Assembly: GCA_027484055.1 (NCBI GenBank)
Contig: JAIXQH010000036.1
Span: 1-64,000, forward strand
Reading direction: 5' to 3'
Source: Verrucomicrobiaceae bacterium
GTDB lineage: Bacteria; Verrucomicrobiota; Verrucomicrobiia; Verrucomicrobiales; Akkermansiaceae
Length of the DNA stretch: 64,000 nucleotides
The position numbers and the translations under genes are program-made. Below the pieces are notes generated by a model. That model had not been told where the DNA came from. It saw only the letters and a list, made by a program, of their open reading frames with translations, and did not search any database. Positions 10,442 through 64,000 of the stretch are shown here, in pieces (positions within the stretch are counted from its first letter, which is position 1; each line of letters begins with the position of its first letter).

Positions 10442-11247
10442 TTCTCCCGCCCGCGCCCATCCTTGAACTTTTCAAGCTCACCAAGTCCTACCCCTCCCCC
10501 AAGGGCCCCGCCGTCATCGTAAAAGACTTCAACCTCAACCTCGCCCCCGGTGAATTCGTCACGCTCATCGGCCACTCCGGCTGTGGGAAATCCACCGTCC
10601 TCTCTATGGTCGCCGGACTCACCGGCGTCACCGAAGGTGCCATGATCCTAGGCGGCCGCGAGACCGACCAAGCCGGCCCAGACCGCGGCGTCGTCTTCCA
10701 GTCCCCCTGCCTCCTGCCTTGGATGACCGCCTTTGAAAACGTCATGCTCGGCGTCAACCAAGTCTATTTCAACGCCCGGAAATCCGAACGCCGCGACCTC
10801 GCCGAGTATTACCTCTCCGTCGTCGGCCTCGGAAATGCCATGCACAAATACCCCGGCGAATTATCCCAAGGCATGTGCCAGCGCGTCGGCATCGCCCGTG
10901 CCTTCGCCCTCCAGCCCAAGATGCTCCTGCTAGACGAGCCCTTCGGAATGTTGGACTCTCTGACCAAAATGGAGCTCCAAGAAGTCCTGCTCGCCCTCTG
11001 GCGGCGCAACAAACTCACCACCCTCATGGTCACCCACGACGTGGACGAGGCCATTTTTCTCTCCGACCGCGTCGTCATGATGACCGACGGCCCCGCCGCC
11101 GAAGTCGGCGACATCCTAACCATCCCATTCGATCGCCCGCGTAACCGAGTCGCCATCCTCGCAGACCCCTGCTACGCCGAGTGCCGGAATCACCTGCTGA
11201 CCTTCCTTAACGAACGGTCCCACTTGCGGCCTAGCCAGGGGAAATAG
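10438..11247 (+). CDS. nrtD: Nitrate-type ABC transporter ATPase, second subunit (NrtD-like)
   Basis: The 269-aa protein has complete ABC motifs: Walker [11 protein letters not shown]-loop FQSPCLLPW, signature LSQGMCQRV (Gln for the usual first Gly), Walker [15 protein letters not shown] and switch MVTHDVDEA with the His present. Its start overlaps the stop of the first ATPase by four bases (ATGA), indicating translational coupling. It closes the nitrate-type transporter operon. The stop codon TAG is inside another ATAGG-type repeat. Pairing with the H-loop-deficient partner suggests an asymmetric ATPase dimer. Confidence 0.92.
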
Positions 11248-45256: not shown

Positions 45257-45291
45257 CTTAATTTTAGATAGGTAAGCATGCCTCACTAGAT

Positions 45292-46233: not shown

Positions 46234-46238
46234 CTCCT

Positions 46239-47027
46239 ATGAAATTCTTCATTCCACTCTTCGCCCTCATTCTCCCCGCTGCTGCCGACTCACTGCGCAC
46301 TGCAAGTGTGACCGCATCGATCAATGACGTGCAGATTTTTCCAGGTTCACGTGCTGCCCATGCGGCGACAGTCGGAGAAAAAGTCAGCACCCCGTCGTCG
46401 GTGCAAACTGGACGACTCTCCCGCACCGAACTCACGTTCAATGACAACACCATCACCCGCCTAGGTCAGAACTCTATTTTTAGTTTCCATGAAGGCGGTC
46501 GTAACGTGGAGCTAAAACAAGGCTCCGTCTTGCTCCAAGTCCCTAAAAATGCGGGGGGCGCCACCATCCGCACGGCGACAGTGACCGCTGCCATCACCGG
46601 GACTACCGTGATGTTTGAATACGGCCCCGGAGGCTGGATTAAGCTGCTCACACTCGAAGGAACCCAGAAGCTCTCGGTCAACGGCAGTAAAATCAGCGTC
46701 TCTGTCCCAGCAGGCAAAATGATCATCATGAATGCAAATGCCACGGTGATTCCTGAGCCAGTCACCATCGACATCGCCAAGCTCATCGCCACCTCGCCGC
46801 TTGCAGGCGAAGGCACCTTCGGGCCACTGCCCGCGAACGTCCGGGAATTGATTGAAAGAACAATCCAAGAGCAGTTGGTCGCGAAACGTGAGGGCGATCT
46901 ACTCCCCACAAACTACATCATTATCGGCACTGGTAGCCGCACCTCAGAAACCGTCGTTGGTTTCAGCCAAGACTCACGCCAAAATGGCTTTAGTTTCACA
47001 GATAACCCTGGCACACCACGGCCCTAA
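46239..47027 (+). CDS. FecR-domain exported protein
   Basis: The ATG at 46239 follows the barrel gene by 5 bases and gives 262 aa with a signal peptide (about 1-16). The FecR core (PF04773) spans about 25-150: VGEKVSTPSSVQTGRLSRTE, LTFNDNTITRLGQNSIFSFH and ELKQGSVLLQVPKNAGGA, with TATVTAAITGTTVMFEY. Classic FecR spans the membrane and signals to a sigma factor; this one is fully exported and lacks that helix. FecR proteins of this type often neighbour CHASE2 cyclases. It is probably a periplasmic scaffold or sensor partner. Confidence 0.88.
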   Translation: MKFFIPLFALILPAAADSLRTASVTASINDVQIFPGSRAAHAATVGEKVSTPSSVQTGRLSRTELTFNDNTITRLGQNSIFSFHEGGRNVELKQGSVLLQVPKNAGGATIRTATVTAAITGTTVMFEYGPGGWIKLLTLEGTQKLSVNGSKISVSVPAGKMIIMNANATVIPEPVTIDIAKLIATSPLAGEGTFGPLPANVRELIERTIQEQLVAKREGDLLPTNYIIIGTGSRTSETVVGFSQDSRQNGFSFTDNPGTPRP

Positions 47028-47085
47028 GCAATTCCAGTCTCTGGCCGAAACCGGACTGAAGCGTGTCTGCTAACAACGACTTTTG

Positions 47086-48798
47086 CTAGGGTGTGTGCAG
47101 CGGAGTGAGTTTTTCGAGAGCAGGTGAAAGCGGTGCTGGCTGATCGTTATGGAAGGTGTGGCAGCGGATGCATCGGTGGTCGATCCCACCCTGAGGGCTG
47201 TGACAATCGACGCAGGACTTGATCGAAGGCAAGTTGAGATCACGGGTGAGTTCACTGGTCATCACGTTATGACAATCCAGGCAACTTAGACCCTTCTGGT
47301 GCATCTCGTGATTGAATTTTCCAAGTGTCATCCAGCGGTCCGGGACAGAGACTTTTTTGATTTCCGGCGTCGCATTGTCACTCTTCGGTTCTGACACTTC
47401 ATGGCAAGTTGCGCAGCCTGCAAAGGGTGCGCGGAGGCCACCAGGGATTTCTCCTTTCATATCGGCAAAAAAGACGGAGCGCTCGAGTTGCTCACCGGTT
47501 TGATAGAGCTTTTCGATGGAGATTTTTTTCTCACTCACATAAGCTGTGAGCTCATCTCGACGGGTTATGCCTTCATGACTGCGGGCATATTCTTCGTATT
47601 GAATGTTCAAGCTACGCAGGAAGGCGCGCACGTAGTAGGGATCACCGTGTGGTAAATAGATGCCTGGCTTGTCCTTTTCCGCAGGTGTGTCTGGATCGAA
47701 CTGGAGAGTATGGCATTCCATGCAGTGCTTCTCGTAAGTGATGGGAGCTTGGTATTCGCCGTTAGTATCCCGTTCGTGGCAGTCGCTGCAATTGAGCGTT
47801 CTCGGGATTTTACCGGTTTTCAAGTGGACGGCGTGATTGAACTTGAGCGAATTCTCATCCTGGATGCCTTCACGAATTTGCTGGAACTCGGGGTGATCGG
47901 TGGAGAAGCCGGTGATGACTTGCGTGTAGCCTTTTTCCGGACGGGGCCGGGCTTGGATTTTCAGTTTGGAGTCGAGGGTGGGAAATGCGTGTGGATCCAT
48001 TTGGCTCCCCTTGGCGGCGGAAGCAGCCATGAGCTCGGCGGAACCGTGACATGAGGTGCATGAGGCACTATCCACTTCCCGCATGAATCCGCTGCCTTGA
48101 TGCTCCTTGTGGCATTCCTGACAGGCGAATTCCATGGCCATGTTCGGCTGATGAAACTTTTTGCCCTCATGGCAGGCCAGGCAATTCGCATCCATCGCAG
48201 AGGCTTGAAGTGGCCCTTTCTTGATTAGATCGGTGGGAGTTAGCCCAAGTTTAAACGCGTCAAAAGCCTTGGTGGGCCAAGTTTCCAAGCCCTGCTGAGG
48301 CCCATCATGACATGCGGCGCATTGGCTCGCCTCTGCGCCTACTTGCTTCTTATGGATTTCTGCAAACGTCGCACTTGCGTGAACGTTAGAGAGGGGGCCG
48401 GGGTTGGTGAATGAGTCGCGAAACTGGCCGCTGATGCCGACAAATAGAATCAGAAAACTCACGATCACCGTGAAGGCGACGACACGCGACCGGATGGAGC
48501 GGAGAGTCCTGCGCGGCTGGCATTTAGGAATCGCGTTGCAGCAAGTCCCATCAGGCAATGGCCCGTTTTCGCATTTGCCACCGCCGGTTTTGGGGCGGGT
48601 GCAGAGCCAGTGTCCTTTTACCTCACCTGGTTTTAAGTCCAAGCGTGGCGAGCACTCGTAGGTCGCCCGGCATTTGCCTTTCGGGGAGGGGCCGATCCGG
48701 CAAGGGCAGCCCTGACACAAATGACCGCATTCCCAATTGAGATTGGGACGAACATACTCCTTGGAGGGAAATGCCGGTGAATGCTGAGGGTCTTTCAT
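47086..48798 (-). CDS. Membrane-anchored decahaem c-type cytochrome with Cys-rich cytoplasmic head
   Basis: The ATG at 48798 overlaps the upstream stop (ATGA) and gives 570 aa. Residues 1 to about 100 carry at least 11 Cys in clusters such as CGHLCQGCPC and CENGPLPDGTCC, before a single membrane helix (VVAFTVIVSFLILFVGI, about 105-125). The rest is extracytoplasmic with ten CxxCH haem sites: CAACH, CLACH, CQECH, CTSCH, CSDCH, CMECH, CATCH, CLDCH, CVDCH and CIRCH. It is the last gene of the leftward electron-transfer operon and probably carries electrons from the membrane complex into the periplasm. The N-terminal cluster may bind Fe-S or zinc. Confidence 0.93.
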   Translation of the reverse strand: MKDPQHSPAFPSKEYVRPNLNWECGHLCQGCPCRIGPSPKGKCRATYECSPRLDLKPGEVKGHWLCTRPKTGGGKCENGPLPDGTCCNAIPKCQPRRTLRSIRSRVVAFTVIVSFLILFVGISGQFRDSFTNPGPLSNVHASATFAEIHKKQVGAEASQCAACHDGPQQGLETWPTKAFDAFKLGLTPTDLIKKGPLQASAMDANCLACHEGKKFHQPNMAMEFACQECHKEHQGSGFMREVDSASCTSCHGSAELMAASAAKGSQMDPHAFPTLDSKLKIQARPRPEKGYTQVITGFSTDHPEFQQIREGIQDENSLKFNHAVHLKTGKIPRTLNCSDCHERDTNGEYQAPITYEKHCMECHTLQFDPDTPAEKDKPGIYLPHGDPYYVRAFLRSLNIQYEEYARSHEGITRRDELTAYVSEKKISIEKLYQTGEQLERSVFFADMKGEIPGGLRAPFAGCATCHEVSEPKSDNATPEIKKVSVPDRWMTLGKFNHEMHQKGLSCLDCHNVMTSELTRDLNLPSIKSCVDCHSPQGGIDHRCIRCHTFHNDQPAPLSPALEKLTPLHTP

Positions 48799-49631
48799 GA
48801 GGCGGCTCCGGAAAACGCGTGAACGAGGATGATGTGTAACACGCTGAATATCAGCAACGAATAGCTGAGTGGGATATGCGCGAACAGCCACAAGCGGAGT
48901 GTGGATTGCAACGTATATTGGTAGTCGAGCAGGTGCTTCTGGGTGACGAGATCCCGCAATTTTTCAATGAGCTCATGCTCGCCTTTCTTGGCATAGCGTT
49001 GAATCTCGTCAAATTCGGAAGTGTGCGCCGCATGCGGAGCGCGTGACTGGCGGAGGTGCGCCCACCGGTTGCAGGGTTTTGTGAAAAACAATCCCAATCG
49101 TTTCGTGTAAAATTCGGCAACCACGGACGAGGTCTGCCCGTCTACTCCAGCTAGAACGAGGGCTTCCGCCTCTGCGCGTAAGCTACGCCGTGCATAAGGA
49201 ATTCTCTCGTAAGGCGTTTCGTAGCCCGCGACGGTGAGCATTCTTGGGAAGGCACGGCTGATCCATAACCCAACTACTCCAGTTAAGAAGACCACGATAT
49301 AACACCAGGCGAGCAGTTGATGAAAAATTCCAGCAGGCCAAGAACCACTGATGTGGACGAAGAATAACGCACCCGAGAAGACACCCACGTAAAGGTGCAG
49401 TTGCAACCAGAAACGGGTACTCCCGAGACGCAGAAAAGGAACCCGCTTTCTCAAGTTGAAGAAAGTTAGAAACAACATCGCCGCGAAAAGAACCCAACCA
49501 CTCAAATACGCATGACGTGGAAACAAAGGCGCGTATTGGTCATAGGCCACCACAGCCAAGACCACGGCCAAGGTGGTCAGGAGAATACTGATCACCCGCC
49601 GGCGTTTGAGTTCTATTTCCTTTTTAGCCAC
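48795..49631 (-). CDS. Cytochrome-b-like integral membrane protein of the electron-transfer operon
   Basis: The 278-aa protein starts at GTG 49631, overlapping the upstream gene by 19 bases. It has five or six hydrophobic segments. His residues are placed in helices in the way of haem-b ligands: LHLYVGVFSGALFFVH and FHQLLAW, then AHIPLSYSLLIFSVLHIILVH. A cytoplasmic loop of about 90 residues lies between the fourth and fifth segments. It resembles ferric-reductase/cytochrome b561-like membrane domains and should pass electrons from the cytoplasmic Fe-S protein to the decahaem cytochrome. Haem binding is inferred from His positions. Confidence 0.8.
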   Translation of the reverse strand: MAKKEIELKRRRVISILLTTLAVVLAVVAYDQYAPLFPRHAYLSGWVLFAAMLFLTFFNLRKRVPFLRLGSTRFWLQLHLYVGVFSGALFFVHISGSWPAGIFHQLLAWCYIVVFLTGVVGLWISRAFPRMLTVAGYETPYERIPYARRSLRAEAEALVLAGVDGQTSSVVAEFYTKRLGLFFTKPCNRWAHLRQSRAPHAAHTSEFDEIQRYAKKGEHELIEKLRDLVTQKHLLDYQYTLQSTLRLWLFAHIPLSYSLLIFSVLHIILVHAFSGAAS

Positions 49632-51382
49632 TGTGTAAGGGAGGTTACCCGGGTTAAATCGGTCCGGCTAAGAGCGTCATGTGGGCAGGCGTTCAAGCAG
49701 GCAGGGCCGCTGAGTTGCTCCACACACAAATCACACTTGGTTGCTTTCAAAATAGGCTGAAACTCTTCATCGACCAAGAATTCACCTTGGCTGGATCTCA
49801 CCTCGACCATGCGGATCGAGTCATACGGACAATTCGCCGCACAGGTGCCACAGCCGATGCAGGAGGCTGGATTGATCACGACTTCCCCACCAAAGCTGGT
49901 CCGGTGAATCGCACCGGTGGGACAGCCGATCATGCACACAGGGTCCACGCAGTGCATGCAGGCGTTCGCGATCATCAGATTGTCAATCATCGGCCCATGC
50001 CGTAAGAAGCGTGGGTTCCCGTCGTGAGTCGAAGCACAAGCGCGGACGCAATCGTCGCAACGGGTACAGCGGTCCATGTCGATGACCATGGACTTGGTAC
50101 CATTGAAAAAGCGATGCTCCGCCATGAACTCCATGAGGCTAGCAGATGGAGCCTCGTCCGCTTCAACCAGCCCCGTATTCTCCGAGTCTGACTTGAACTG
50201 GGGAACGGTGATGGTTGGGAACTCAGCTTCAGATAAGCCCCGATTGGCAAATTTTTCCAATGCAGCGGTGGGGATGAAAATGAGGTGAGCATATCCTAAT
50301 GAGCGCAAGGTATACAGAGACTGCATCTCTTGGTTAGGATTTTTCCAATACTTCGCGATTTCTTCATAGCCGAAAACGCTGCCAGCTCCAATGTAGTTCA
50401 AGGTGCGTTCGCCACTACCGTATTTCTGACTGACGCGGCAGAATCCAGCTCGAATCATGTAGATCCCGTTACTATACTCCCCTTCTTTCACAATGAGTGG
50501 CTCACTCGCGAATGTCGTCGAGTCACCATCCGCCGCTAGCTTGCGGTAAGCACCAGACCAGTTATAGTCACCAAAGGTTTCCAACTGGGCCTCTTCACAC
50601 AACTGAACGAAATCTTTCTCCGCTAGATGACTGAAAAGCCGGTGATTGCTAAGGAAGTTTTTCAGAGAATTCTCACGATAGATGGTATCGATCTGCTTCT
50701 TCAGCGCCGCATCATAGCGCATGATATCTCGCAACCCTTCCCAACTGAATTCCAACAAACTAGCCTGCGCCGTAGCAGCTACCACGGTGGCAGTTCTCGG
50801 CATCCGACTGAGCGCAGAAATCTCGCCAAACATCTGCCCCTTTTTTAGCGCAACCGTCTGCGCTTCTGACACGATCTGCGGGTAATCCTGTAAATAGACA
50901 GAATTGATTTTCTTGCTGATAGAACCTTTATTCTTATCGCTAGCACGCGGAGATTTTTTACTCCAGCCCTCGGGTTCAGGGTTGTTGTTCCAGAGTTGAC
51001 CGATGCGAGCCATCAAGCCTTTTTTCACCTTCGGCGCACGTCCCAAAAGCTGGGGATCAAGGTCAGAGCGCAGGATGACATCCACTTCTCCCTCCAAGAC
51101 TAAAAATGCCGAGGTTCCGTAGTCATCCTTACGCAGAATGATTTCGCCAATGGTGTAATGACGAACGGCCGAGTCAGCCCTCAAGATTTCCCGTAGCGGA
51201 GTGCCGGCAGGAAATGCGGACTGATTCATACTGGCAAATGGCTCGGTGGCCAGCAGCCTGTCCAAGGTGGCGTCAGTCATCGCCGGATCAAGCGGGTCAT
51301 CCCAGCGTTTAGGACGGGTGGCTTTGCGAGTGAGACTTTCGAGAGTTGTTCCGGTAGTTGCCATAGGTTGAGCGTTAGGCAT
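49613..51382 (-). CDS. Cyclic-nucleotide-binding and four-[4Fe-4S] ferredoxin fusion protein
   Basis: The 589-aa protein is cytoplasmic. The first cNMP domain (about 60-225) has an intact phosphate-binding cassette, FGEISALSRMPRTATV at 185-200 with Arg196, and an insertion of about 70 residues after the early beta strands. A second, degenerate cNMP domain lies at about 245-410. The C-terminal part (about 430-580) holds four Cys quartets in DMSO-reductase-B style, including CTRCDDCVRAC, CMHCVDPVCMIGCP, CIGCGTCAANCP and CDLC...CLNACP. It would relay electrons from the NqrF-like reductase to the membrane protein, possibly gated by cAMP. ATG 51382 is chosen for a GGTGAT ribosome site; ATG 51364 is the alternative. 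Confidence 0.93.
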   Translation of the reverse strand: MPNAQPMATTGTTLESLTRKATRPKRWDDPLDPAMTDATLDRLLATEPFASMNQSAFPAGTPLREILRADSAVRHYTIGEIILRKDDYGTSAFLVLEGEVDVILRSDLDPQLLGRAPKVKKGLMARIGQLWNNNPEPEGWSKKSPRASDKNKGSISKKINSVYLQDYPQIVSEAQTVALKKGQMFGEISALSRMPRTATVVAATAQASLLEFSWEGLRDIMRYDAALKKQIDTIYRENSLKNFLSNHRLFSHLAEKDFVQLCEEAQLETFGDYNWSGAYRKLAADGDSTTFASEPLIVKEGEYSNGIYMIRAGFCRVSQKYGSGERTLNYIGAGSVFGYEEIAKYWKNPNQEMQSLYTLRSLGYAHLIFIPTAALEKFANRGLSEAEFPTITVPQFKSDSENTGLVEADEAPSASLMEFMAEHRFFNGTKSMVIDMDRCTRCDDCVRACASTHDGNPRFLRHGPMIDNLMIANACMHCVDPVCMIGCPTGAIHRTSFGGEVVINPASCIGCGTCAANCPYDSIRMVEVRSSQGEFLVDEEFQPILKATKCDLCVEQLSGPACLNACPHDALSRTDLTRVTSLTQWLKRK

Positions 51383-52661
51383 CAATCACCATTTTGCCCT
51401 TTGGACGGCAGATGCAGGTCAAACAACTTCCCTCTTCCGGCTCGTTTCCAGGTTCTCCCACATATTCTACGCTGCCTTCCTTGATCGCCACGACACAACT
51501 GCCACAGCTCCCTGAGCGGCAGCCTGCATCAATGCTGGTGATCCCATTGGCTTCAGCGAAATCGAGCAGATTCGCGACGGCAGGGTCCCAGAAGACTTTT
51601 TTCCCGGAGCGGGCAAATTCAATTTCTACCGTTGCTTGCGATGGGGTGTTTGAAGGCAGCTCGGGTTCTTTCGGCTTGGTGCTAACGGTTGCTGGCCCGA
51701 ATGCTTCGAACTTCACATCCTTTTTCGGAACACCCCATTCATATAGCCCGTTCACCAAGCTATCCATGAACGGCCCGGGACCACATAGATAATACTCGTA
51801 ATTGCTAGATGGCAAAACTGATTTCATCAGCTCCACCGTCACCCGACTGTGGTGGTTGTATGACACACCTAGTAAATCCTCGTCTAGCGGACGACTGTAG
51901 CAAATGTGCAGTCGAAGGTTTGGATTCTTTTTCTGTAACTCAATCACCTCGTCACGGAACATGTGGTCCATGTTGTTCCGGCAACCGAAGAAAAAATAAA
52001 TCTCCCGTCGATCCTGGATATGCGTCAAGACACGCGCCATCGCTAACATCGGCGTAATGCCGATTCCTCCGGAAATCAGTACGACAGGACGCTCGACTTC
52101 GACATCGAGAAAAAACTTACCACTCGGTGCCTTCACATCGAGAATATCACCTTCTTTCACATGATCCGCGAAGTAGTTCGAAACCGCGCCCGGCTGCCCG
52201 TCGGCACGGGTGTAACGTTTGATCGTGACTCGATAATGATCATCGCTAATCGAGCCATCAGACAGTGAGTAACACCGCACCTGAGGTTTTGGCTCATTCG
52301 GGAATTTTACTTCAAACGTCAGGTATTGACCGGGTTTGAACTTGGGTAGTGGCTTGCCGTTATGAGGCGTGAGATAGTAGGAATAGGTGTCCTCGCATTC
52401 TTCAACTTTCTTGGAGACGGTGAATTTCCGACAGCCGTTCCACGCCACTTCCGGGGCGGCTTGGGCCTTCAGGTTGAGAATTTCGATTTTTTTACTGAGC
52501 GCATCAAGTTCGAGACGGTTCCGCTGAGACTCAAAGCGATACCGCGCGCCAACAACCCACCACTGAGTTGCGATGTATCCCAGCGTCAAAAAGCCACCAC
52601 CTAGACCGATCGTAAGGAGTGGGCTCTGTAGCAACAAAGTCAGTAAGATCTCGTGATTCAC
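51375..52661 (-). CDS. NqrF-like FAD/NAD(P)H reductase with a 2Fe-2S domain
   Basis: The 428-aa protein begins at GTG 52661 with one membrane helix (about 10-35) and a short coiled region. The FAD-binding ferredoxin-reductase core follows: RCYSLSDGS (FAD), ISGGIGITPMLAMARVL (NAD/NADP) and YYLCGPGPFMDSLV. At the C terminus is a plant-type 2Fe-2S domain with the Cys set DAGCRSGSCGSC...CLTC. The domain order (helix, reductase, C-terminal 2Fe-2S) differs from NqrF, where the 2Fe-2S is N-terminal. It is the first gene of the leftward operon and probably brings in electrons from NADH or NADPH. Confidence 0.92.
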   Translation of the reverse strand: MNHEILLTLLLQSPLLTIGLGGGFLTLGYIATQWWVVGARYRFESQRNRLELDALSKKIEILNLKAQAAPEVAWNGCRKFTVSKKVEECEDTYSYYLTPHNGKPLPKFKPGQYLTFEVKFPNEPKPQVRCYSLSDGSISDDHYRVTIKRYTRADGQPGAVSNYFADHVKEGDILDVKAPSGKFFLDVEVERPVVLISGGIGITPMLAMARVLTHIQDRREIYFFFGCRNNMDHMFRDEVIELQKKNPNLRLHICYSRPLDEDLLGVSYNHHSRVTVELMKSVLPSSNYEYYLCGPGPFMDSLVNGLYEWGVPKKDVKFEAFGPATVSTKPKEPELPSNTPSQATVEIEFARSGKKVFWDPAVANLLDFAEANGITSIDAGCRSGSCGSCVVAIKEGSVEYVGEPGNEPEEGSCLTCICRPKGKMVIDA

Positions 52662-52791
52662 ATTATCAGTTCAATTCAAAAAGCAAGGTCACTGCTGCAT
52701 TGAAAGGATTTATCGGGGTTTTACTAGCAAGAATTTCGACTTCGTGCGTGGCTAGCATATTGGCTTGCCACCCTTCAACCCAAAACCTTAC

Positions 52792-53946
52792 ATGGTCTTA
52801 CGTGTGAAGGAGAGGCTGCTATTTTTAGGATTTGTGATCGCATTTTGCCTCTCGCAAAGTGGCATGGGGCAGCCTCTGGAAGCCGAAAAAGCGCTGGGTT
52901 CCCAAACGTGCATGACCAGTGGTTGCCATGGTGGAGCAGGGCCGGGCCGCGGCGCTTATACCATTTGGAAACAGTATGACCCCCATTTCGACGCTGCTGC
53001 CACCCTGACAAACGGCCGCTCTCGGGCGATGGCCAGACAGCTCGGCCTCGACAATGCGGCGGAAGCCCAAAGTTGCACCGTCTGCCACTCCCCGCTGCGT
53101 CAAATCGCACCGAGCGAGCTCCCGGCACCGCCGGAAGGTCACAAGCGCGACAGCGGTGTCTCCTGCGCAAGTTGTCACGGGCCTGCGGACCAATGGCTAC
53201 TTTCTCACACTCGCCCGGATTATCCGCAAGCCGCGCTGGCTCGCCTCGGGATGCGGCAGCTTGCCACTTCATACCAGCGGGCTAACAATTGCGTCGCTTG
53301 CCACCAGAATCTGAGCAATGAGCTTGTGGAGGCTAGGCACCCTCCTCTCGTCTTTGAGCTAGATGGTCTCATGGTGGCTGAGCCGAAACATTGGCGCGAA
53401 GAAGAGGGCTTTTCTCATGTGAAATCATGGTTGGTGGGGCAAGCCGTGGCACTGCGTGAAACAGCGGCACAGGCCAGTCGCGAACCGGGCCCACGCAGAA
53501 CTGCGGAAATCGAAGCAATTCGAGCCTTGCTGAATGCGACAGCCACAGGCTGGAACGACTCCACTCAAAATCTCGTGCGCTCGGCGGATGATTTTGCCAA
53601 ACAAATTTCAGAGTCCCCCATGAGTCAGGAGCAAAGTCGTGCGATCTTGCTCAAACTGATTCGCAACCGAACTCCATTCCAAACCGATGCATTCGCCCAA
53701 GTCGCTGCGGACTATCGTTTGTGGTCGATCGGTTATTACGCAGAGCGCCTCACATTGGCGATTGATCGCCTCAACCAATCGCTCATTTCTTCCGGACAAA
53801 GCGGAATGTTTGCAGAGGATTTCCTAAACGCGTTGTTCGATGCGGCGAAACCTCCCGAAAGCTTTGATGCCGCGACCACCGAAGCTTTCGTAAAACAATT
53901 GGATCGATTGAAAATGGCAGCACTCGATCTGGAAAAAGCCCGATAA
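52792..53946 (+). CDS. Periplasmic tetrahaem cytochrome c (c554-like)
   Basis: The ATG at 52792 gives 384 aa with a signal peptide (about 1-27, ending GMGQ). Haem sites are CMTSGCH (CxxxxCH), CTVCH, CASCH and CVACH, all in the first 190 residues. The order and spacing (KALGSQTCMTSGCHGG, then SPLRQ, then GPADQW) resemble the cytochrome c554 family. The C-terminal half is helical and haem-free. It diverges from the reductase operon with a 130-base spacer and leads the rightward operon. It probably shuttles electrons between the decahaem membrane cytochrome and the outer-membrane complex. Confidence 0.92.
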   Translation: MVLRVKERLLFLGFVIAFCLSQSGMGQPLEAEKALGSQTCMTSGCHGGAGPGRGAYTIWKQYDPHFDAAATLTNGRSRAMARQLGLDNAAEAQSCTVCHSPLRQIAPSELPAPPEGHKRDSGVSCASCHGPADQWLLSHTRPDYPQAALARLGMRQLATSYQRANNCVACHQNLSNELVEARHPPLVFELDGLMVAEPKHWREEEGFSHVKSWLVGQAVALRETAAQASREPGPRRTAEIEAIRALLNATATGWNDSTQNLVRSADDFAKQISESPMSQEQSRAILLKLIRNRTPFQTDAFAQVAADYRLWSIGYYAERLTLAIDRLNQSLISSGQSGMFAEDFLNALFDAAKPPESFDAATTEAFVKQLDRLKMAALDLEKAR

Positions 53947-53972
53947 CCCCCATCCATGAACATCGTAAAAAA

Positions 53973-56396: not shown

Positions 56397-56398
56397 CC

Positions 56399-59300
56399 AT
56401 GAATCGAGCCCTGATCTATCTCCGTATCGCCTGCATGCTGACCGCCATCCTCATGGCTTCCTCAGGTCATGCCGAGCAGACATCCAGCATTTTCGGCCCA
56501 CCTGTCGCCGCCGCCGAATCACCCGTTAGTAATACCACCATCCCGAAGTCTAACAATTTCGACCAATCCAAAGAAGCCGTCATGCTGAAAAGCCGCGGCT
56601 GTATCACCTGTCATGAAACCTCGAAAGATCCGCACGCCAGCGACTTTGTCCGACTCGGCTGCACCGACTGCCATGGTGGCGATCCCACACCAGGTCTCAC
56701 CATGCGCCAAGCCCACCCAGAACCGCGCAATCCTGTTTTCTTTGAAAGTTCCGCAAACCCAAGCGCCAGCGATGTGCTGCTCAATCACGAATCTCCAGAA
56801 TACATTCAATTCGTCAACCCAGGTGACCTACGCGTGGCCCAGAAAACCTGCGGTGACTGCCATGCGGAGTCCGTCGATCACGTCAACCACAGCATGATGC
56901 GTCACGGTGCCATGCTCTGGGGTGCCGCCGCTTATAACAACGGTGCCTACCCGCTCAAAGATTCCATTTTCGGCCAAGCCTACGGCGCGAACGGCGTTTC
57001 ACTTGCCCTGCAAAGCCCCATCAAGGTGACGCTAGAAATGCAAAGAACCATGGGCATCGTCCAAGAGGTTTTCCCGCTCCCACGCTTCAACATCTCTCAG
57101 CCTGGAAATATTTTCCGGATCTTCGAAAAAGGGGGCAGCAAACTCGGAGAACTCGGCACCCCCGATCCGAACGAAGCACCCGGAAAACCCTTCCGCCGCC
57201 TCGGAGAGCGCGGGCTTGGCACCTTTTCCCGGGTCGATCCCGTCATCATCGGCGCTCACAAGACTCGTCTCCACGATCCCCTGCTAGACTTCTTCGGCTC
57301 AAACGACCGCCCCGGCGACTACCGCTCCAGCGGCTGCACCGCCTGCCACGTCGTCTATGCGAACGACCGCTCACCTTCTAACTCCGGCTGGTATAGCGCT
57401 TATGGAAATCAGGGCCTCTCCTTCAATCCTGACCCCATGATTTCCAAGAAGGAAAAAGGTCACCCCATTGAACATAAATTCACCCGCAGCATCCCATCCA
57501 GCCAGTGCATGACCTGCCACATGCATCAAGGAAATCTCTTCGTAAACCCCTATCTCGGTTACACCTGGTGGGACCAAGAATCCGACGCGGAGTTCATGTA
57601 TCCCAAGGAACAAAAAAATCCCAGCGACGAAGAAATGACCCAGTCGCTGAGGAAAAACCCAGAAGCAGCCGCCGCGCGTGGACTCTGGGGAGATATCAAT
57701 TTCCTCGAAAAAACCGCCGAGCTAAATCCCAAACTCAAGCAGACCCAGTTCGCCGACTACCACGGCCACGGCTGGGTCTTCCGCGCCGTGTTCAAAAAAG
57801 ACCGTGAAGGCAATCTCCTCACCCTCAAGGACGAGAAAATTCCTCACGACGACCCCGACAAATTCAAAAAAGCCGTCCACCTCAAAGACATCCACCTCGC
57901 ACGCGGCATGCAGTGCGTGGATTGCCATTTCCTCAATGATTCCCATGGCAACGGACTGCTCCACGTCGAGCCACGCGCCGCCACTGCCATCACCTGCATC
58001 GACTGCCACGGCACCGTGAGCCAGCACACCACCCTCCTCACTTCCGGCAAGGGCGGCACCTTGTCTAAGGAAGGGAAAATCGACCCCATCAATCTCCGCG
58101 AAAGCAACACCCCCTTTGGCCCCCGTTTCAGTTGGAGCGCGGATGGCAAGCGCTTGATGCAACAGTCCTCCATGGAGCCAAACCTCAAGTGGGAAGTCCC
58201 TCAAACGCTAGACACCGTCACCCCCGGCTCGGACCACTATAACGTCATGAGCGCCTATGCGAAGACTCTCAAGCGCGACGGGAAAAACTGGGGCTCTGTC
58301 CCGGATGATCCAAAAAACTGCGCTAAAGAGCTCGCCCATAGCAACGACGCCATGGACTGCCAGACCTGCCACACCGCGTGGGCCACCAGTTGCTTCGGCT
58401 GCCATATTCCCATGGAGGCAAATCATAAAATGGCAGCTAACAAATTTGAAGGAACCACCACCCGCAACTTCAGCTCCTACAATCCTCAAGTCGTCCGCGA
58501 CGACGTCTTCATGCTCGGCAAAGACAGCACGGCTAAAGGAAATCGCCTGGCTGTCCTGCGCTCATCCAGTGCCATGGTCGTCGGCTCGCAAGGCGCGAAC
58601 CGCGAGTGGTTCTACACCCAGCAGCAGACGGTCTCCTCCGAGGGCTACTCCGGCCAAGCCTTCAACCCCCACTTCGCCCACACCACCAGCGGCGTCGGCA
58701 CCACCAAGAACTGCACCGACTGCCACGTCTCTGCGGAAAATGACAACAATGCGATCATGACCCAGCTCCTCGGCTTCGGCACCGGTACGGTCAACTTTTT
58801 CGGTAGATATAGCTACGTCGGCACCGACGATCACGGCCTGCACGGCATCGCCTGGACCGAGCGCACCGAGCCGCAAGCCGCCATCGGCAGCCACCTCCAT
58901 CGCATCGCTTACCCATCTAACTACAAGGATCACCTCGCGACCAACTCCATCCTCAAAACCGCCTATCACCACGAAGCCAAAGGAGGCGGCGTACTCGATC
59001 TCCAAGCGCGCGGCGAATACCTCTACGCCGCTCTCGGTAAAAATGGCTTCGGCGTTTTTGACATTGCGAACATCGACAACAAAAACTTTTCCGAGCGCAT
59101 CATTAGCACCCCCGTCTCCTCTATCGGCCAAACTACCTTTATCAAAACCGCAAACGCCACCTCCGTCACTCTCCCGAGCACCCTGATTAACGATCCTAAC
59201 CGCAACCGCCTCCCGCAAAACGAAGAGCGGCCCATCGCCACCTATCATGGTTATGCCTTCGTCACCGATCTCGAAGAGGGCCTCATCGTCGTGGATGTCG

Positions 59301-60262
59301 CGACTTTACTCGATGGAAATCCAGACAACAATTTCCTCAAACGCGCCGCCACCTTTAATCCAGACGGGAAACTCACCGGAGCCCGTCACGCCTGGATGGC
59401 CGGCCAATGGCTCTACATCACCACCGCGCAGGGGCTCGCTGTTGTCGATGCCGTGAACCCCACAGCCCCCACCTTTGCAGGCGGCTATTCCGGCTCCTTC
59501 CTGCGAGGTGCCCGCCAATCCACCGTGCAATGGCACTACTGCTTCGTTACCGACGAGGAGGGCGTGAAAGTTTTCGATATTTCAAATCCCACAAGGCCCA
59601 CCCCCATCCCCGGTGCCTCCGTTCCACTTAAAAATGCTGACGGCCTCTACATCGCCCGAACCTACCTCTACGTCGCCGACGGCGCGGCTGGCCTAGCGAT
59701 CGTCGATGTGAAAAACCCAGAAAAACCGCACGTCCTCACCCATTTCACGGCAGGTGGAAAACTCAACGATGTTCGCGACGTGCAAGTCGGCTCCGTCAGC
59801 GCCTCGATGTATGCGCTCGTCGCAGATGGTCACAACGGCATGCGCGTCATCCAGCTCATTTCCCCCGAGAACGTGCCCGGCCACATGGGCTTCTCGCCCA
59901 AACCCGAGCCAAAACTCATCGCCACCTACCCCACCGAAGGCGCCGCCGTATCTGTCTCCCGCGGCCTCGACCGCGACCGCGTCGTGGACGAGAGTGGTCA
60001 CCAAACGGTCGTCTTCGGTCGCCGTGGCTCAGGCCCGCTCAGCCTGCAAGACATGACTGCCTTTTACCGTAGCTCCAGCGGCTCGATTTATAAAGTTTCC
60101 GATGTCAAACACGGCGACAATGACACCCTGCTCGACACCTTCGGCAAAACGCTGCTACCCGCTCCCGACTTCACCTCTCCAAAGTCCGCAGAACGCGAAG
60201 AACCCGCACCTTATCGAGGGCGTTTGAGACAGCGCAGAGAACCTGTCGGTCTTAACCGATGA
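56399..60262 (+). CDS. Decahaem c-type cytochrome fused to an LVIVD beta-propeller
   Basis: The ATG at 56399 lies two bases after the barrel stop and gives 1287 aa with a signal peptide (about 1-26, ending GHA). Ten CxxCH sites span about residues 68-775: CITCH, CTDCH, CGDCH, CTACH, CMTCH, CVDCH, CIDCH, CQTCH, CFGCH and CTDCH. From about 840 to 1170 come LVIVD-type propeller blades (LIVVDVATLL, LAVVDAVNPTAP, VKVFDISNPTRP, LAIVDVKNPEKP). A basic tail ends the protein. It probably forms the terminal electron-exchange element in or outside the outer membrane. The partner barrel is directly upstream. Confidence 0.92.
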   Translation: MNRALIYLRIACMLTAILMASSGHAEQTSSIFGPPVAAAESPVSNTTIPKSNNFDQSKEAVMLKSRGCITCHETSKDPHASDFVRLGCTDCHGGDPTPGLTMRQAHPEPRNPVFFESSANPSASDVLLNHESPEYIQFVNPGDLRVAQKTCGDCHAESVDHVNHSMMRHGAMLWGAAAYNNGAYPLKDSIFGQAYGANGVSLALQSPIKVTLEMQRTMGIVQEVFPLPRFNISQPGNIFRIFEKGGSKLGELGTPDPNEAPGKPFRRLGERGLGTFSRVDPVIIGAHKTRLHDPLLDFFGSNDRPGDYRSSGCTACHVVYANDRSPSNSGWYSAYGNQGLSFNPDPMISKKEKGHPIEHKFTRSIPSSQCMTCHMHQGNLFVNPYLGYTWWDQESDAEFMYPKEQKNPSDEEMTQSLRKNPEAAAARGLWGDINFLEKTAELNPKLKQTQFADYHGHGWVFRAVFKKDREGNLLTLKDEKIPHDDPDKFKKAVHLKDIHLARGMQCVDCHFLNDSHGNGLLHVEPRAATAITCIDCHGTVSQHTTLLTSGKGGTLSKEGKIDPINLRESNTPFGPRFSWSADGKRLMQQSSMEPNLKWEVPQTLDTVTPGSDHYNVMSAYAKTLKRDGKNWGSVPDDPKNCAKELAHSNDAMDCQTCHTAWATSCFGCHIPMEANHKMAANKFEGTTTRNFSSYNPQVVRDDVFMLGKDSTAKGNRLAVLRSSSAMVVGSQGANREWFYTQQQTVSSEGYSGQAFNPHFAHTTSGVGTTKNCTDCHVSAENDNNAIMTQLLGFGTGTVNFFGRYSYVGTDDHGLHGIAWTERTEPQAAIGSHLHRIAYPSNYKDHLATNSILKTAYHHEAKGGGVLDLQARGEYLYAALGKNGFGVFDIANIDNKNFSERIISTPVSSIGQTTFIKTANATSVTLPSTLINDPNRNRLPQNEERPIATYHGYAFVTDLEEGLIVVDVATLLDGNPDNNFLKRAATFNPDGKLTGARHAWMAGQWLYITTAQGLAVVDAVNPTAPTFAGGYSGSFLRGARQSTVQWHYCFVTDEEGVKVFDISNPTRPTPIPGASVPLKNADGLYIARTYLYVADGAAGLAIVDVKNPEKPHVLTHFTAGGKLNDVRDVQVGSVSASMYALVADGHNGMRVIQLISPENVPGHMGFSPKPEPKLIATYPTEGAAVSVSRGLDRDRVVDESGHQTVVFGRRGSGPLSLQDMTAFYRSSSGSIYKVSDVKHGDNDTLLDTFGKTLLPAPDFTSPKSAEREEPAPYRGRLRQRREPVGLNR

Positions 60263-61329
60263 AACATCCAAAATCCAACATGCGTCATCCATTCTTCCTC
60301 GCACCACTCGCACTCTGCATCCTCAGCTCTTGCAAGGATGATGAAATCCGCACCTACCGCGTCGCCACGGAGCCTACTTCGGCAAGTCCCGTGGCGCCTG
60401 CCGCTGCAGCCAGTGAGCCGACTCAGAAGCAAGTCACTAACCCTTCCGGGGCGGTTGGGTGGTTGGCTCCTCCCGATTGGATCGTCGAGAAACCCACTCA
60501 ATTTCTCACCGCTGCCTACACTCTGCCCACGGGCGGCCGCGTCACCGTATCCAAACTCGGAGGTGACGGTGGCGGGCTCGCCGCAAACGTCAATCGCTGG
60601 CGGGGCCAGGTCGGACTCAAGCCACTCGCAGATCAGGAAGTAAAGGGTCAGCCGCTCAAGCTCCCAGACTCCCAAGTCGAGATGCAGCTCTTCAATCTCA
60701 CCACCGCAGACTCCGCCCCGGAGGTGGAGGGAATCCTTGCTGGCGTACTGCCGTTGCCGACAGAAACCTGGTATTTCAAATTCAGTGGTCCCACAGGAGT
60801 TCTCAGAAAAGGCGAGGGCATCTTCGCCGAGTTCCTGCGCAGTGTCCGCATCGGCGGAAGTTCGAAAAGTGCCCCCACAACTGCCCCGACTGCGGCAAAG
60901 AAAATCAACGTCACTCCACCCGCTGGCTGGACCGCCAGCACAGGCAGCTCGATGCGGGCCGCCAGCTTTTCCATCGCCGGGCCAGAGGGCAGCTCGGCGG
61001 ATGTCTCCGTCATCCCCATCCCGGGGGATTCCGGCAGTGTGCTCGACAACGTCAACCGTTGGCGCGCTCAGCTCAAGCTCGCGCCCCTCGCTTCGGCAGA
61101 TGACCCGGCGCTCGGTAAAAAGGCGGAAATTCCCGCCGGCGAAATTTTCACCAGCCACATAACCAGCACCGAGCCGATCGTGAACGGAAAAAAAGCCGCC
61201 ATGGGCACCGCCATCCTCAAGCGCCCCGGCATGACTTGGTTTTTTAAAATCACGGGCAACGCCACTCTCGTGGAAGCGAACCTCGAAAAATTCGACACCT
61301 TCGTCCGTTCCGCCACCTTCCCTGAGTAA
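60259..61329 (+). CDS. Lipoprotein with two copies of an unknown domain
   Basis: The ATG at 60259 overlaps the cytochrome stop (ATGA) and gives 356 aa. The lipobox is LSSC, with the mature protein starting CKDDEIRT. Two related domains of about 130-140 residues follow, each with a Trp-rich start (VGWLAPPDWIVEKPTQF and PAGWTASTGSSMRAASF), an N-V-N-R-W-R-x-Q-(V/L)-x-L-(K/A)-P-L core (NVNRWRGQVGLKPLAD and NVNRWRAQLKLAPLAS) and a T-W-(Y/F)-F-K end. No family is recognised. As part of the cytochrome operon it may help assemble or anchor the outer-membrane complex. Confidence 0.82.
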   Translation: MKHPKSNMRHPFFLAPLALCILSSCKDDEIRTYRVATEPTSASPVAPAAAASEPTQKQVTNPSGAVGWLAPPDWIVEKPTQFLTAAYTLPTGGRVTVSKLGGDGGGLAANVNRWRGQVGLKPLADQEVKGQPLKLPDSQVEMQLFNLTTADSAPEVEGILAGVLPLPTETWYFKFSGPTGVLRKGEGIFAEFLRSVRIGGSSKSAPTTAPTAAKKINVTPPAGWTASTGSSMRAASFSIAGPEGSSADVSVIPIPGDSGSVLDNVNRWRAQLKLAPLASADDPALGKKAEIPAGEIFTSHITSTEPIVNGKKAAMGTAILKRPGMTWFFKITGNATLVEANLEKFDTFVRSATFPE

Positions 61330-61335
61330 GACCCC

Positions 61336-62493
61336 GTGCCCATTTTCAAGTTCCTCAGCTCCCTTCGCCTGACCGTCTCCCTGCTGGGTTTTGGTATGGT
61401 GCTGATCTTCGTGGCCACCATCACCCAAGTCGAGCTGGGCATCCACGAGGTGCAGGCCCAGTTTTTCCGCTCATGGATTGCCTGGTGGGATGTCATGCCC
61501 GGCGAGACAAAGTTCCCCATCCCCATCCCCGGCGGCACCTTGCTCGGGCTGCTTCTCATCATCAACCTGCTCGCCGCCCACACCGCACGCTTCAAGCTCA
61601 GCTGGAACAAGGCTGGCATGATCGTCATCCACAGCGGCATCCTGCTGATGCTGGTGGGAGAAATTTTCACCGGTCTGCTCGGACGCGAGGCGCAGATGGT
61701 CATTCGTGAAGGGGAAATCCTGAACTATTCCAGCTTCCCCCGCGAGGTCGAGTTGGTCGTGATCCGTCCTGATGCCGATGGCTTGGAAACCGTCACCGCC
61801 ATCCCGCAGTCCCGCTTGAAAGACGGTGCGCAATTCCCGTTTGGAGGCTTCACGGTGAACGTCCACCGCTATTTCCCCAATAGCGAAATCCTCCCAGAAG
61901 CCGATGCCTCCCCTGCCTTCGACCCCGTCCGCGCCACCGACGGATCAGGAAAAGGCTACGCCGCCCGCCGCATGCCACTTGAGGCCGCTGATAACCGCCG
62001 CGATCTCGCCACGGCCTTTGTCGAGATCATCCCGGACAGCGGGAAATCCCAGGGCACCTGGCTGCTCTCAAATGCCTTCAAAGGCGAGCAATCCTTCACC
62101 GCCGCAGGTCGATCTTGGAAAATGGCCATCCGCCCGCGCCGTCTCTATCATCCGTTTTCGATCAAGCTGATCGATTTCAGCCACGACCGCTACCTCGGCA
62201 CCGATGTCCCTAAAAATTTCTCCAGCAAAATCAAAATCCTCAATCCCGACACCGGGGAAAATCGTGAGGACCTCCTCTACATGAACCACCCACTGCGCTA
62301 CGGCGGACTGACCTTCTATCAGGCGGGGTTTGAAAATAACGACACCACCTCCATTTTCCAAGTTGTCCGCAATCCCGTCTGGACCCTGCCCTACATCTCC
62401 TGCGCCATGGTCGGATTCGGCCTGCTCTGGGTCTTTTCCCAGCACCTCATCAAGGCCATCTCCCGCCGGAACAAGCCCTCCCCCGCCCCATGA
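61336..62493 (+). CDS. ResB/CcsB-like cytochrome c biogenesis protein
   Basis: The 385-aa protein starts at GTG 61336, seven bases after the lipoprotein. It has four membrane helices: about 10-30 (SLRLTVSLLGFGMVLIFVAT), 60-80, 90-110 near FKLSWNKAGMIVIHSGILLM, and 350-370. Between the third and fourth is a large extracytoplasmic ResB domain including MNHPLRYGGLTFYQAGFE. The conserved His in the third helix and before the last helix fit haem handling. It is shorter than ResB of Bacillus (about 540 aa). With the next gene it forms a system II haem-attachment pair needed for the multihaem cytochromes here. Confidence 0.9.
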   Translation: MPIFKFLSSLRLTVSLLGFGMVLIFVATITQVELGIHEVQAQFFRSWIAWWDVMPGETKFPIPIPGGTLLGLLLIINLLAAHTARFKLSWNKAGMIVIHSGILLMLVGEIFTGLLGREAQMVIREGEILNYSSFPREVELVVIRPDADGLETVTAIPQSRLKDGAQFPFGGFTVNVHRYFPNSEILPEADASPAFDPVRATDGSGKGYAARRMPLEAADNRRDLATAFVEIIPDSGKSQGTWLLSNAFKGEQSFTAAGRSWKMAIRPRRLYHPFSIKLIDFSHDRYLGTDVPKNFSSKIKILNPDTGENREDLLYMNHPLRYGGLTFYQAGFENNDTTSIFQVVRNPVWTLPYISCAMVGFGLLWVFSQHLIKAISRRNKPSPAP

Positions 62494-64000
62494 GCCGCTT
62501 CCAGAAAATCACCGCGTGGCTCATCCCCGCGCTCTGCCTGCTTTACATCGCGATTGCCGCGATCCGTGCCACGCGGCCAGCCACTGGGTTTGATTTTAAA
62601 ACATTCAGCAGCCTCCCCGTGGTCTCGAACGGCCGCATCCAGCCGCTCGATTCCCTTGCCCGAAATGCTCTGCTTTCCATCCATGGCAAACAACGCGTCC
62701 CCGGCGACGACGCGCCCGCCACCCCTGCCGCGTGGCTCGCTGAGCTCAATTTCCAGCCCGCCCGTGCTGATACCCGGAAAATTTTCCTCATCCATCACGA
62801 CGACCTGCTCGGTCTCACCAAGCTCACCCCGAGCGAAGGGAAATCCTACTCTTACGCCCAGCTCCTCCCCTCCTTCGCCGCCCTTCAGCCAGAAGCCAGA
62901 CGCATCGGTAACGCCGACTCAAAAACCTGGTCGCCTTACGAAAAAGCGCTGATGTCGCTCACCCGCAACCTCACCCTCTACAATCAGCTCAAGCACGCCC
63001 TCGCCCTGCCCGGGCAAGACCACCTCGAGTCCGAGTTCACCCAGTTTCTCAGCACCATCGCCAGCGCTCTGGCCGAGGAGGAAAATCAAAGCCGCGGCCA
63101 AGCATTTAGCCAAAGCGCCATCGACGCCGCCTCCGCGCCCATGACCACCGTGCTCGATTGGACACCGATGACGGAGGTTTACACCACCCCGTCCGGCAGC
63201 GGCCCAGACGCTTGGAAAAAACTACCCGATTCCCTGCTAGAATCGGTCGAGAAAAAGCAAGCCCTTCACCCCGCCACCCTCGCCTACGCCCGCTTGGGAG
63301 ATGCCTACCGCGCCCAAGACATCACCGCGTTCAACTCCGCTCTCACCGACTACCGCACCTGGCTCGCCGCCCAGCGCCCGGAGCTTTTGAAAAAAGCGAC
63401 TTCCGAAACTTTCTTCAACGCCATCGCACCCTTTTACCTCTGCATGGTGCTCTACGTCGTCGCCTTCGTCTGCGCCATCGTTTCTTGGCTCTGGAACGGC
63501 AGCACCTTCCGCAGCGCCGCCTTCCGAGTCCTGCTCATCGGCCTCAGCCTCCACACCCTCGGCCTGATCACCCGCATGCTGCTAGAGGGCCGCCCGCCAG
63601 TGACGAATCTCTATTCATCCGCCATCTTCATCGGCTGGGGTGCCATCCTGCTCAGCACCGTGCTCGAACTTTTTCACCGCAATGCCATCGGCACCGCCGT
63701 CGCCGCCGTGGTCGGTTTCGCCACCTTGCTCATCGCCCACCACCTCTCACTCTCCGGTGACACCTTGGAAATGATGCGCGCCGTGCTCGATACGAATTTC
63801 TGGCTCGCCACCCACGTCGTCGTCATCACCCTCGGCTACTCCGCCACCTTTCTCGCAGGCACCATCGCCATCGTCTATCTGCTCCGCCGCGCCTTCGGCA
63901 GCATCCCCAAGTCCACCGCCACCTCACTGCGCGGCATGGTCTATGGCGTCATCTGCTTTGCCACCCTCGCCAGCTTCGTCGGCACCGTGCTCGGCGGCAT
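62490..64000 (+). CDS. ccsA: CcsA/ResC-type cytochrome c assembly protein (3' end outside the window)
   Basis: The ATG at 62490 overlaps the ResB stop (ATGA). About 503 codons are present before the window end, and the frame is still open. One N-terminal helix (about 10-27) precedes a long extracytoplasmic part containing SNGRIQPLDSLARNALLSIHG, a motif seen in fused CcsBA proteins of Bacteroidetes-like bacteria. From about residue 310 the CcsA domain starts with helices and the loop GRPPVTNLYSSAIFIGWG. The WWD motif should follow outside the window. It exports haem and attaches it to CxxCH sites. Confidence 0.9.
   Translation, partial: MSRFQKITAWLIPALCLLYIAIAAIRATRPATGFDFKTFSSLPVVSNGRIQPLDSLARNALLSIHGKQRVPGDDAPATPAAWLAELNFQPARADTRKIFLIHHDDLLGLTKLTPSEGKSYSYAQLLPSFAALQPEARRIGNADSKTWSPYEKALMSLTRNLTLYNQLKHALALPGQDHLESEFTQFLSTIASALAEEENQSRGQAFSQSAIDAASAPMTTVLDWTPMTEVYTTPSGSGPDAWKKLPDSLLESVEKKQALHPATLAYARLGDAYRAQDITAFNSALTDYRTWLAAQRPELLKKATSETFFNAIAPFYLCMVLYVVAFVCAIVSWLWNGSTFRSAAFRVLLIGLSLHTLGLITRMLLEGRPPVTNLYSSAIFIGWGAILLSTVLELFHRNAIGTAVAAVVGFATLLIAHHLSLSGDTLEMMRAVLDTNFWLATHVVVITLGYSATFLAGTIAIVYLLRRAFGSIPKSTATSLRGMVYGVICFATLASFVGTVLGG

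Follow-up and report, generated by a model that had tools for sequence, protein, structure and literature searches.

Can a single gene cluster move electrons from reduced nicotinamide nucleotides (NAD(P)H) through the whole envelope of a Gram-negative cell? This question was raised by a stretch of 64,000 nt from a Verrucomicrobiaceae bacterium (GCA_027484055.1, contig JAIXQH010000036.1, positions 1-64,000; hereafter the window), in which the initial annotation had recognised two divergent operons and proposed them as an extracellular electron path. The genes are designated here D (reductase), C (ferredoxin-domain protein), B (membrane protein) and A (decahaem cytochrome) on one strand, and E (four-haem cytochrome), F (barrel), G (large decahaem cytochrome) and H (lipoprotein) on the other. 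All of the named genes were present as open frames at their given places, and their haem motifs and membrane helices were confirmed. The set as first described was incomplete in one respect, as a core gene, X, lies outside the coordinates that it covered and had been missed. Overall, the evidence from sequence, gene order and one predicted barrel argues, with moderate confidence on our part, for a trans-envelope electron-export chain that starts at NAD(P)H and ends on an acceptor located at the cell surface or beyond it, and an NAD(P)H-fed outward flow as far as the outer membrane is likely.

Co-inheritance within Verrucomicrobiota

The set was sought in a single draw comprising 387 Verrucomicrobiota genomes, scoring per genome two candidates each for G and F, three for X and up to six for B, with cut-offs of E ≤ 1e-10 for full-length G, E ≤ 1e-5 for F, E ≤ 1e-20 for X and E ≤ 1e-5 for B. 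F, G and X were found in the same 11 genomes (11/387), while two other genomes (G162 and G349) matched the propeller of G only. The association of F with G gave a Fisher p of approximately 1.6e-21, uncorrected for relatedness; since related genomes are not independent, weight was placed on consistency across families and not on the p value. A B-type protein was present in 17 of the 387 genomes, namely in all 11 F-G genomes, linked or not, and in 6 of the 376 others. The B relatives were distant in three of the 11 (G013, G166 and G257), where decahaem A-like proteins were found beside them and, in two, also a C-like protein. 

Among 10 fetched relatives, F adjoined G in all 10 and D-C-B-A lay near F-G in seven and not in the other three; six of these seven carried D-C-B-A-F-G as one co-directional run. 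A wider sample comprised the best 80 of 464 G relatives, some of them near-duplicates of each other or of survey genomes. Nine of the 80 loci had less than 1 kb upstream of G and were left out of the adjacency count, and F adjoined G in 64 of the 71 loci with at least 1 kb. The seven loci without an adjacent F consisted of one with F 727 bases away (L050), one with an incomplete G (L099) and five truly without it; in five genomes with G but no F neighbour, F was found elsewhere in every case. No B was detected at 56 loci, and 37 of these went into a genome-wide search, which located B outside the fetched stretch in 34 genomes (20 close and 14 distant relatives; in at least one case B lay just a few kb past the stretch). 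Two small assemblies, of 2.2 and 1.7 Mb, are among the three genomes in which B was missed. Gene order was conserved, with D-C-B-A in 21/21 loci holding all four genes and D and E as divergent neighbours in 22/22 loci holding both. Genome G307, outside these 22 loci, was an exception with D and E apart and on one strand.

Within the 60-row G alignment, the homologues at 80-86% identity came from metagenome-assembled genomes (MAGs) titled Akkermansiaceae, Akkermansia, Verrucomicrobiaceae, Verrucomicrobiales and Verrucomicrobiae, and the titles of Verrucomicrobial records with the set point to lakes, ponds, bogs and soils. The titles 'Proteobacteria' and 'Akkermansia muciniphila' on seven MAG contigs (L070, L110, L039, L052, L088, L095 and L106) look like loose naming.

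The cytochrome E and the predicted outer-membrane unit F-G-X

The AlphaFold2 model of F showed 18 long strands in approximately residues 271-807, with most of the barrel well modelled (mostly high predicted local distance difference test score, pLDDT). Together with fold searches, the model predicts an integral outer-membrane beta protein. The nearest solved fold was the alginate exporter AlgE (Z 28.8, root-mean-square deviation 2.8 over 355 residues), which shares the barrel fold of F but only 14% identity, and F differs from it in a long N-terminal region and in being co-inherited with a decahaem cytochrome. Occ/OprD porins followed at Z of approximately 22-26 (OccK 25-26, OprD ~22). F had no Pfam match, and its profile, built from 62 of 64 homologues and the window protein, retrieved nothing from the PDB sequences at E ≤ 1. 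MtrB was absent from the 50 fold-search rows listed for F, which does not exclude a likeness to it.

G contains 10 CXXCH motifs, compared with 0.02 expected from shuffled sequences. All ten were invariant in 60/60 aligned rows (the window and 59 of 77 homologues), and 11 further His, possible distal ligands, were invariant in the same rows. Every haem could thus have two His ligands, as would be expected of a wire rather than an enzyme. The C-terminal LVIVD repeat (PF08309) scored 83.1 bits against a cut-off of 20.2, and the G profile retrieved nothing from the PDB sequences at E ≤ 0.1. Foldseek with the G model returned mainly beta-propellers, including cytochrome cd1 entries, from which no inference was drawn as the model is poor. 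A lipobox-like tetrad was seen in 10 of 76 N-terminal stretches of G homologues, in some of them upstream of the likely start.

The third partner, X, matched the Pfam HbpS-like family (PF03928) over two stretches at 84.8 bits (cut-off 25) and sits approximately 10 kb upstream of E in the window. Neighbourhood clustering of the 80 G loci placed X in 40 of them. The tetrahaem assignment of E made initially holds, with three CXXCH motifs (0.005 expected from shuffles) and one CX4CH. E also has a signal-like helix and, by its predicted location, would be the periplasmic multihaem cytochrome expected of a conduit.

The same clustering identified an NHL-propeller protein, Y, right after G in 27 of the 80 loci (e.g., L040 13810-15150); a profile scan did not find Y in the window.

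Proposed inner-membrane input module D-C-B-A

D had been described as NqrF-like. This did not hold, as D scored nearer to flavohaemoprotein-type reductases (262.7 bits, cut-off 432) than to NqrF (93.4 bits, cut-off 295), both under cut-off, and its [2Fe-2S] domain is C-terminal. The proposal of C as an Fe-S relay agrees with its ferredoxin domain and overlooked its cyclic nucleotide monophosphate (cNMP)-binding domains. The best family matches of C were of the ferredoxin beta-subunit kind (DmsB, HybA, FDH-beta), four [4Fe-4S] clusters were read from its Cys motifs, the first cNMP domain keeps the FGE...PR cassette in 11/11 rows and a hydropathy scan found no membrane helix.

From its sequence, B would be a di-haem b membrane protein: H79, H93, H252 and H266 were invariant in 8/8 aligned rows, forming two pairs each spaced 14 residues. 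The hydropathy scan gave four separate segments, and a fifth at approximately residues 76-95 was added by reading. B had no Pfam match and its profile found nothing among the PDB sequences at E ≤ 1. In its two His pairs 14 apart, B resembles NADPH oxidase-type transmembrane reductases. DmsB/HybA/FDH-beta-type pairs of a four-cluster ferredoxin and a cytochrome b share the ferredoxin kind of C. Both system types differ from the present module, in which B and C are accompanied by a decahaem cytochrome and by a flavin reductase that is either a separate protein or fused to C.

A contains 10 CXXCH motifs against 0.08 expected in shuffled sequences. Its start is most likely the ATG at 48798 (570 amino acids, aa) and not the start of the longest frame. 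The alignment showed nine invariant Cys in an N-terminal domain, which precedes the single hydrophobic helix (approximately residues 106-124, hydropathy scan) and would be cytoplasmic. Against the DmsE family of NCBIfam, A scored 33.9 bits, far under the cut-off of 192.2, and its profile gave four weak, short matches to PDB sequences, including 6r2q_A.

D-C-B-A was also observed in six genomes without F, G or X matches (L171-L176), four of them with an E-like cytochrome; in one (L175), C carries an FHA domain.

Occurrence on Sphingomonad plasmids

A search of 72,556 plasmid records was used to assess spread beyond the phylum. The same 13 records, 12 of Sphingobium and one of Sphingopyxis, held F, X and near-full-length G; eleven of the Sphingobium records are similarly named 'Tom' strains and are not independent. 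Two Gloeothece plasmid records matched part of the G propeller only. The initial framing of the set within Verrucomicrobiota was thus too narrow, since it also occurs in Alphaproteobacteria, on plasmids of unrelated soil bacteria. Co-occurrence and linkage in two phyla support one set, although the seven genes are not adjacent everywhere: D-C-B-A was near F-G in only seven of the 10 relatives, and the input module was also found without F-G.

A was present in all 12 Sphingobium records, with 10 CXXCH motifs there as well, and not in the Sphingopyxis record. A search of the plasmid records with the single B sequence of the window gave no match, whereas the B and C profiles, run on two Sphingobium loci and the Sphingopyxis stretch, found relatives in the former only. 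E homologues were present in both genera, and in both X adjoins F. On plasmid pMSHV of Sphingobium herbicidovorans MH, E, X, F and G lie on one strand and C, B and A on the other, within approximately 16 kb. Sphingobium B was weakly cytochrome b561-like (22.1 bits, under the cut-off of 30.1), and Sphingobium X looks by reading like a lipoprotein.

The D profile gave no match in the 32-kb S. herbicidovorans stretch. Instead, the N-terminus of C from this strain carries a pyridine nucleotide-disulphide oxidoreductase domain, of another Pfam family than that of Verrucomicrobial D. The fusion of an unrelated NAD(P)H-type flavin domain to C suggests that one NAD(P)H-oxidising module was replaced by another, and therefore that the inner end of the chain takes its electrons from NAD(P)H.

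A metallophosphoesterase gene lies beside A on pMSHV; its counterpart in another Sphingobium strain is annotated as the cyclic AMP phosphodiesterase CpdA. In one Sphingobium locus (L195 19862-21658), the Cys-rich domain at the start of A is replaced by an FHA/YscD-like one (below cut-off), so that the N-terminal part of A seems exchangeable.

Comparison with known porin-cytochrome systems

MtrCAB, PioAB and MtoAB are alike in working plan, as a barrel and multihaem cytochromes join the inner membrane and the outside. In agreement with the initial impression, F and G matched none of the known conduit families tested. At E ≤ 0.01, F gave no match to the MtrB/PioB family (TIGR03509, NCBIfam) and G none to the OmcA/MtrC decahaem family (TIGR03507); the best NCBIfam match of G, ExtM (NF040943), reached 53.8 bits against a cut-off of 800. 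Membership of F or G in these three families was rejected on the family-model scores. The TIGR03509 model at E ≤ 0.001 found nothing in 10 of the 11 F-G genomes, that of the window included. Genome G160, of the same class, has an MtrB/PioB-family barrel above the curated cut-off (contig C140, L181 6503-9208) at a locus other than that of F. From its sequences, the present set probably works like a porin-cytochrome electron system and is not a member of any named one tested.

Among the Geobacter OmcBC/Ext conduits listed in PMC6148476, the outer cytochromes are mostly lipoproteins, with extHIJKL lacking one. That paper also lists an outer-membrane lipoprotein with a redox cofactor among the marks of a conduit, and window G, without a lipobox, is not of this kind.

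A Verrucomicrobial porin-multihaem complex was described by He et al. 2017, with a periplasmic octahaem cytochrome beside a porin, and strain IMCC26134 is named in that paper (PMC5615132). It shares with the present set the phylum and a barrel gene beside multihaem cytochrome genes. No octahaem cytochrome was seen next to F, the multihaem neighbours observed being E (four haems), G (ten) or A (ten). IMCC26134 (L062, G140) also holds F-G. Approximately 166 kb away, a second locus (L168 5408-10268) encodes an NapC/NirT-like cytochrome, a 274-aa octahaem-like cytochrome (7 CXXCH) and a 775-aa frame. Relatives of ResB and H lie upstream of these, approximately 2.3 kb from the octahaem-like gene. 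The models of F, G and A-E matched neither the octahaem-like gene nor the 775-aa frame, which had no Pfam match. Judging from the layout, this second locus would be the published cluster and the 775-aa frame its barrel. Identity of the porin-octahaem system with the present set was rejected on the layout in IMCC26134, where the two appear separate.

No account of this gene set was found in the main text of the open-access papers searched, nor any paper there combining LVIVD with a multiheme cytochrome or alginate export with multiheme. Neither cyclic nucleotide-binding nor Sphingobium occurred among the matches listed. 'LVIVD repeat' was mentioned once in a Methanosarcina paper (PMC6315138).

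Proposed mechanism and alternative explanations

The cofactors fit the outward order from NAD(P)H that had been proposed initially. Cytoplasmic NAD(P)H would reduce D, first its flavin adenine dinucleotide (FAD) and then its [2Fe-2S] cluster, and D would hand the electrons on to the clusters of C, in which the cNMP domain probably acts as a switch. From C they would reach the two b haems of B and there cross the inner membrane to the ten c haems of A. E would then shuttle them across the periplasm to the outer-membrane unit of F, G and X, in which the haem chain of G, held by the barrel F, would pass them to an acceptor such as Fe(III), humics or another oxidant. We infer the protein contacts, the order of transfer and the outward direction. 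Cyclic-nucleotide gating is suggested by the FGE...PR cassette in C, the cyclase gene beside the set and cyclase relatives in 8/80 loci; the cyclase is a possible source of the nucleotide for C, by association only.

A di-haem b path lets the membrane potential drive electrons outward. Outward flow was favoured because no ion pump was seen in the set and the membrane potential pushes electrons out. Electron uptake, in which extracellular Fe(II), humics or another donor would feed the chain from outside, is a direction that porin-cytochrome systems can take, as in PioAB (PMC6831781) and MtoAB (PMC12016527). For the present set it is improbable: the inner end is a reductase of the NAD(P)H type, electrons flowing in to NAD(P)+ would have to overcome the membrane potential, and no energy-coupled pump was seen in the set.

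Several observations weigh against this explanation. One concerns the width of the barrel. F was calculated at 32-36 Angstrom backbone-to-backbone, compared with 46-52 for 26 strands (widths calculated from strand number), and a decahaem protein may not fit through a narrow 18-strand barrel of the AlgE/Occ type as modelled. The barrel of MtrB has 26 strands, against about 18 in the predicted model of F. The initial annotation had named a narrow barrel of solute-porin fold as grounds for abandoning its proposal, and this applies by half: F does model as an 18-strand AlgE/Occ-type barrel, but Geobacter ExtB is also predicted at 18, so that the narrowness of F is not decisive. ExtB, with 18 predicted transmembrane domains, lies beside multihaem cytochromes in a cluster that has been examined as an outer-membrane conduit through gene deletion (PMC6148476). 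In addition, window G has, by reading, no lipobox and a signal peptidase I (SPase I)-like signal and could be wholly periplasmic, and its haem part was poorly modelled (mean pLDDT 55), too poorly to trace haem positions. The input module, present without F-G in 6/376 genomes, can also be put to other uses. In Sphingopyxis indica, E-X-F-G is unaccompanied by A, B or C over the 32-kb stretch, and the plasmid record gave no A match. Sphingobium is regarded as aerobic, so Fe(III) respiration would meet no obvious need there. Finally, judging by the name of its family, X is related to haem-handling proteins, and this could indicate a part in iron or haem metabolism instead.

The alternative that survives best places the end of the chain in the periplasm, with G as a terminal reductase and F as a channel for a soluble acceptor or product. 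The fold of F is indeed of the solute or polymer channel type (AlgE, OccK, OprD), the SPase I-like signal and missing lipobox of window G would suit it, and Geobacter ExtI has been proposed as a possible selenite/tellurite channel beside cytochromes (PMC5877670). What makes it unlikely in our judgement is G itself, in which no substrate-type haem site is evident as conserved His suffice for all ten haems; co-inheritance of a large cytochrome with one barrel (11/11 genomes) is also the pattern of a conduit. Acquisition of iron or haem, with F, G and X binding or releasing haem or ferric iron and the chain acting as an assimilatory reductase, would accord with the two HbpS-like stretches of X and with ShlB/FhaC-type two-partner secretion genes close to the Sphingobium locus, one of which is annotated as heme:hemopexin-binding, but we give it little credence. 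Reading representatives of the recurring neighbour families (at least 5 of 80 loci each, among those listed; most without a family search) recognised no TonB-dependent receptor or haem transporter, which is weak evidence against it.

Within the export chain preferred here, a more specific form can be put forward tentatively, although it is doubtful as a whole: a cyclic-nucleotide-gated, NADPH-oxidase-like wire through the Gram-negative envelope, bypassing the quinone pool, with G on an AlgE-type barrel and an HbpS-like partner. It would be common to Verrucomicrobiota and aerobic Sphingomonads and serve as a controlled redox outlet or extracellular reductant (e.g., for Fe(III), humics or oxidative biopolymer breakdown), not for respiration. 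To our knowledge, the known Gram-negative conduits are fed from quinols. If the export reading is true, the set would represent a sequence-distinct, so far undescribed trans-envelope electron family in Verrucomicrobiota and Sphingomonads, with a direct link from NAD(P)H to the outer membrane and an apparent cyclic-nucleotide switch. F, G and X provide a clean three-gene marker for surveys, and the plasmid location in the cultured S. herbicidovorans MH makes the set amenable to ordinary gene deletion.

Layout of the window and other neighbouring genes

The coordinates of the set and its neighbours are given in Table 1. The ATGA-type coupling described initially was found at the B/A, G/H and ResB/CcsA junctions and not at two others: the stop of F is followed by 2 bases and then the ATG of G, and the D/C overlap has the sequence ATGCCTAA.

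Table 1. Features of the gene set and its surroundings in the window.
Feature	Position	Strand	Description	Basis
X	41197..42777	+	Predicted secreted, two HbpS/GlcG-like stretches, core partner of F and G	
CHASE2 - adenylate/guanylate cyclase	43295..45286	-		Pfam CHASE2 117.6 bits, Guanylate_cyc 74.8 bits
FecR-domain gene	46191-47027			Pfam
A	47086..48798	-	Decahaem cytochrome c, inner-membrane-anchored, one helix, Cys-rich N-terminal domain	CXXCH count, hydropathy, alignment
B	48795..49631	-	Membrane protein, 4-5 helices, two conserved His pairs, putative di-haem b	Alignment, hydropathy
C	49613..51382	-	cNMP-binding domains and DmsB/HybA/FDH-beta-kind ferredoxin domain	Pfam, NCBIfam
D	51375..52661	-	FAD/NAD(P)H reductase, N-terminal hydrophobic stretch, C-terminal [2Fe-2S] domain	Pfam, NCBIfam
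D/E divergent control region	52662..52791		Arrangement mostly kept	
E	52792..53946	+	Four-haem cytochrome, cytochrome c554-like, predicted periplasmic	3 CXXCH and 1 CX4CH
F	53973..56396	+	Predicted outer-membrane barrel, ~18 strands in residues 281-806, N-terminal region mostly disordered	AlphaFold2, fold searches
G	56399..60262	+	Decahaem cytochrome with C-terminal LVIVD propeller, export-signal-like N-terminus	Motifs, Pfam
H	60259..61329	+	Lipoprotein (lipobox by reading), beside ResB/CcsA	
ResB	61336..62493	+	ResB-type cytochrome c maturation protein	Pfam ResB 73.9 bits
CcsA	62490..64000, continues to contig position 64310	+	CcsA-type haem-attachment protein	Pfam Cytochrom_C_asm

The haem-attachment genes named initially were supported by Pfam for both ResB and CcsA, the full frame of the latter, completed from the contig, scoring 77.2 bits with Cytochrom_C_asm. 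H had no Pfam match. H and ResB/CcsA were dropped as parts of the set: since H and ResB relatives also occur near a different cytochrome locus, H and ResB/CcsA were treated as haem-attachment helpers. CHASE2-cyclase relatives were counted in the 80 G loci as given above, and FecR-domain relatives were near G in 6/80, so the FecR gene is not a constant part of the set. Relatives of both the cyclase and the FecR-domain gene were found near F-G in five loci (L042, L063, L087, L097 and L109). Finally, an ATP-binding cassette (ABC) transporter operon with NrtA-like binding proteins, a permease and two ATPases was identified by reading at 6071-11244 of the window.

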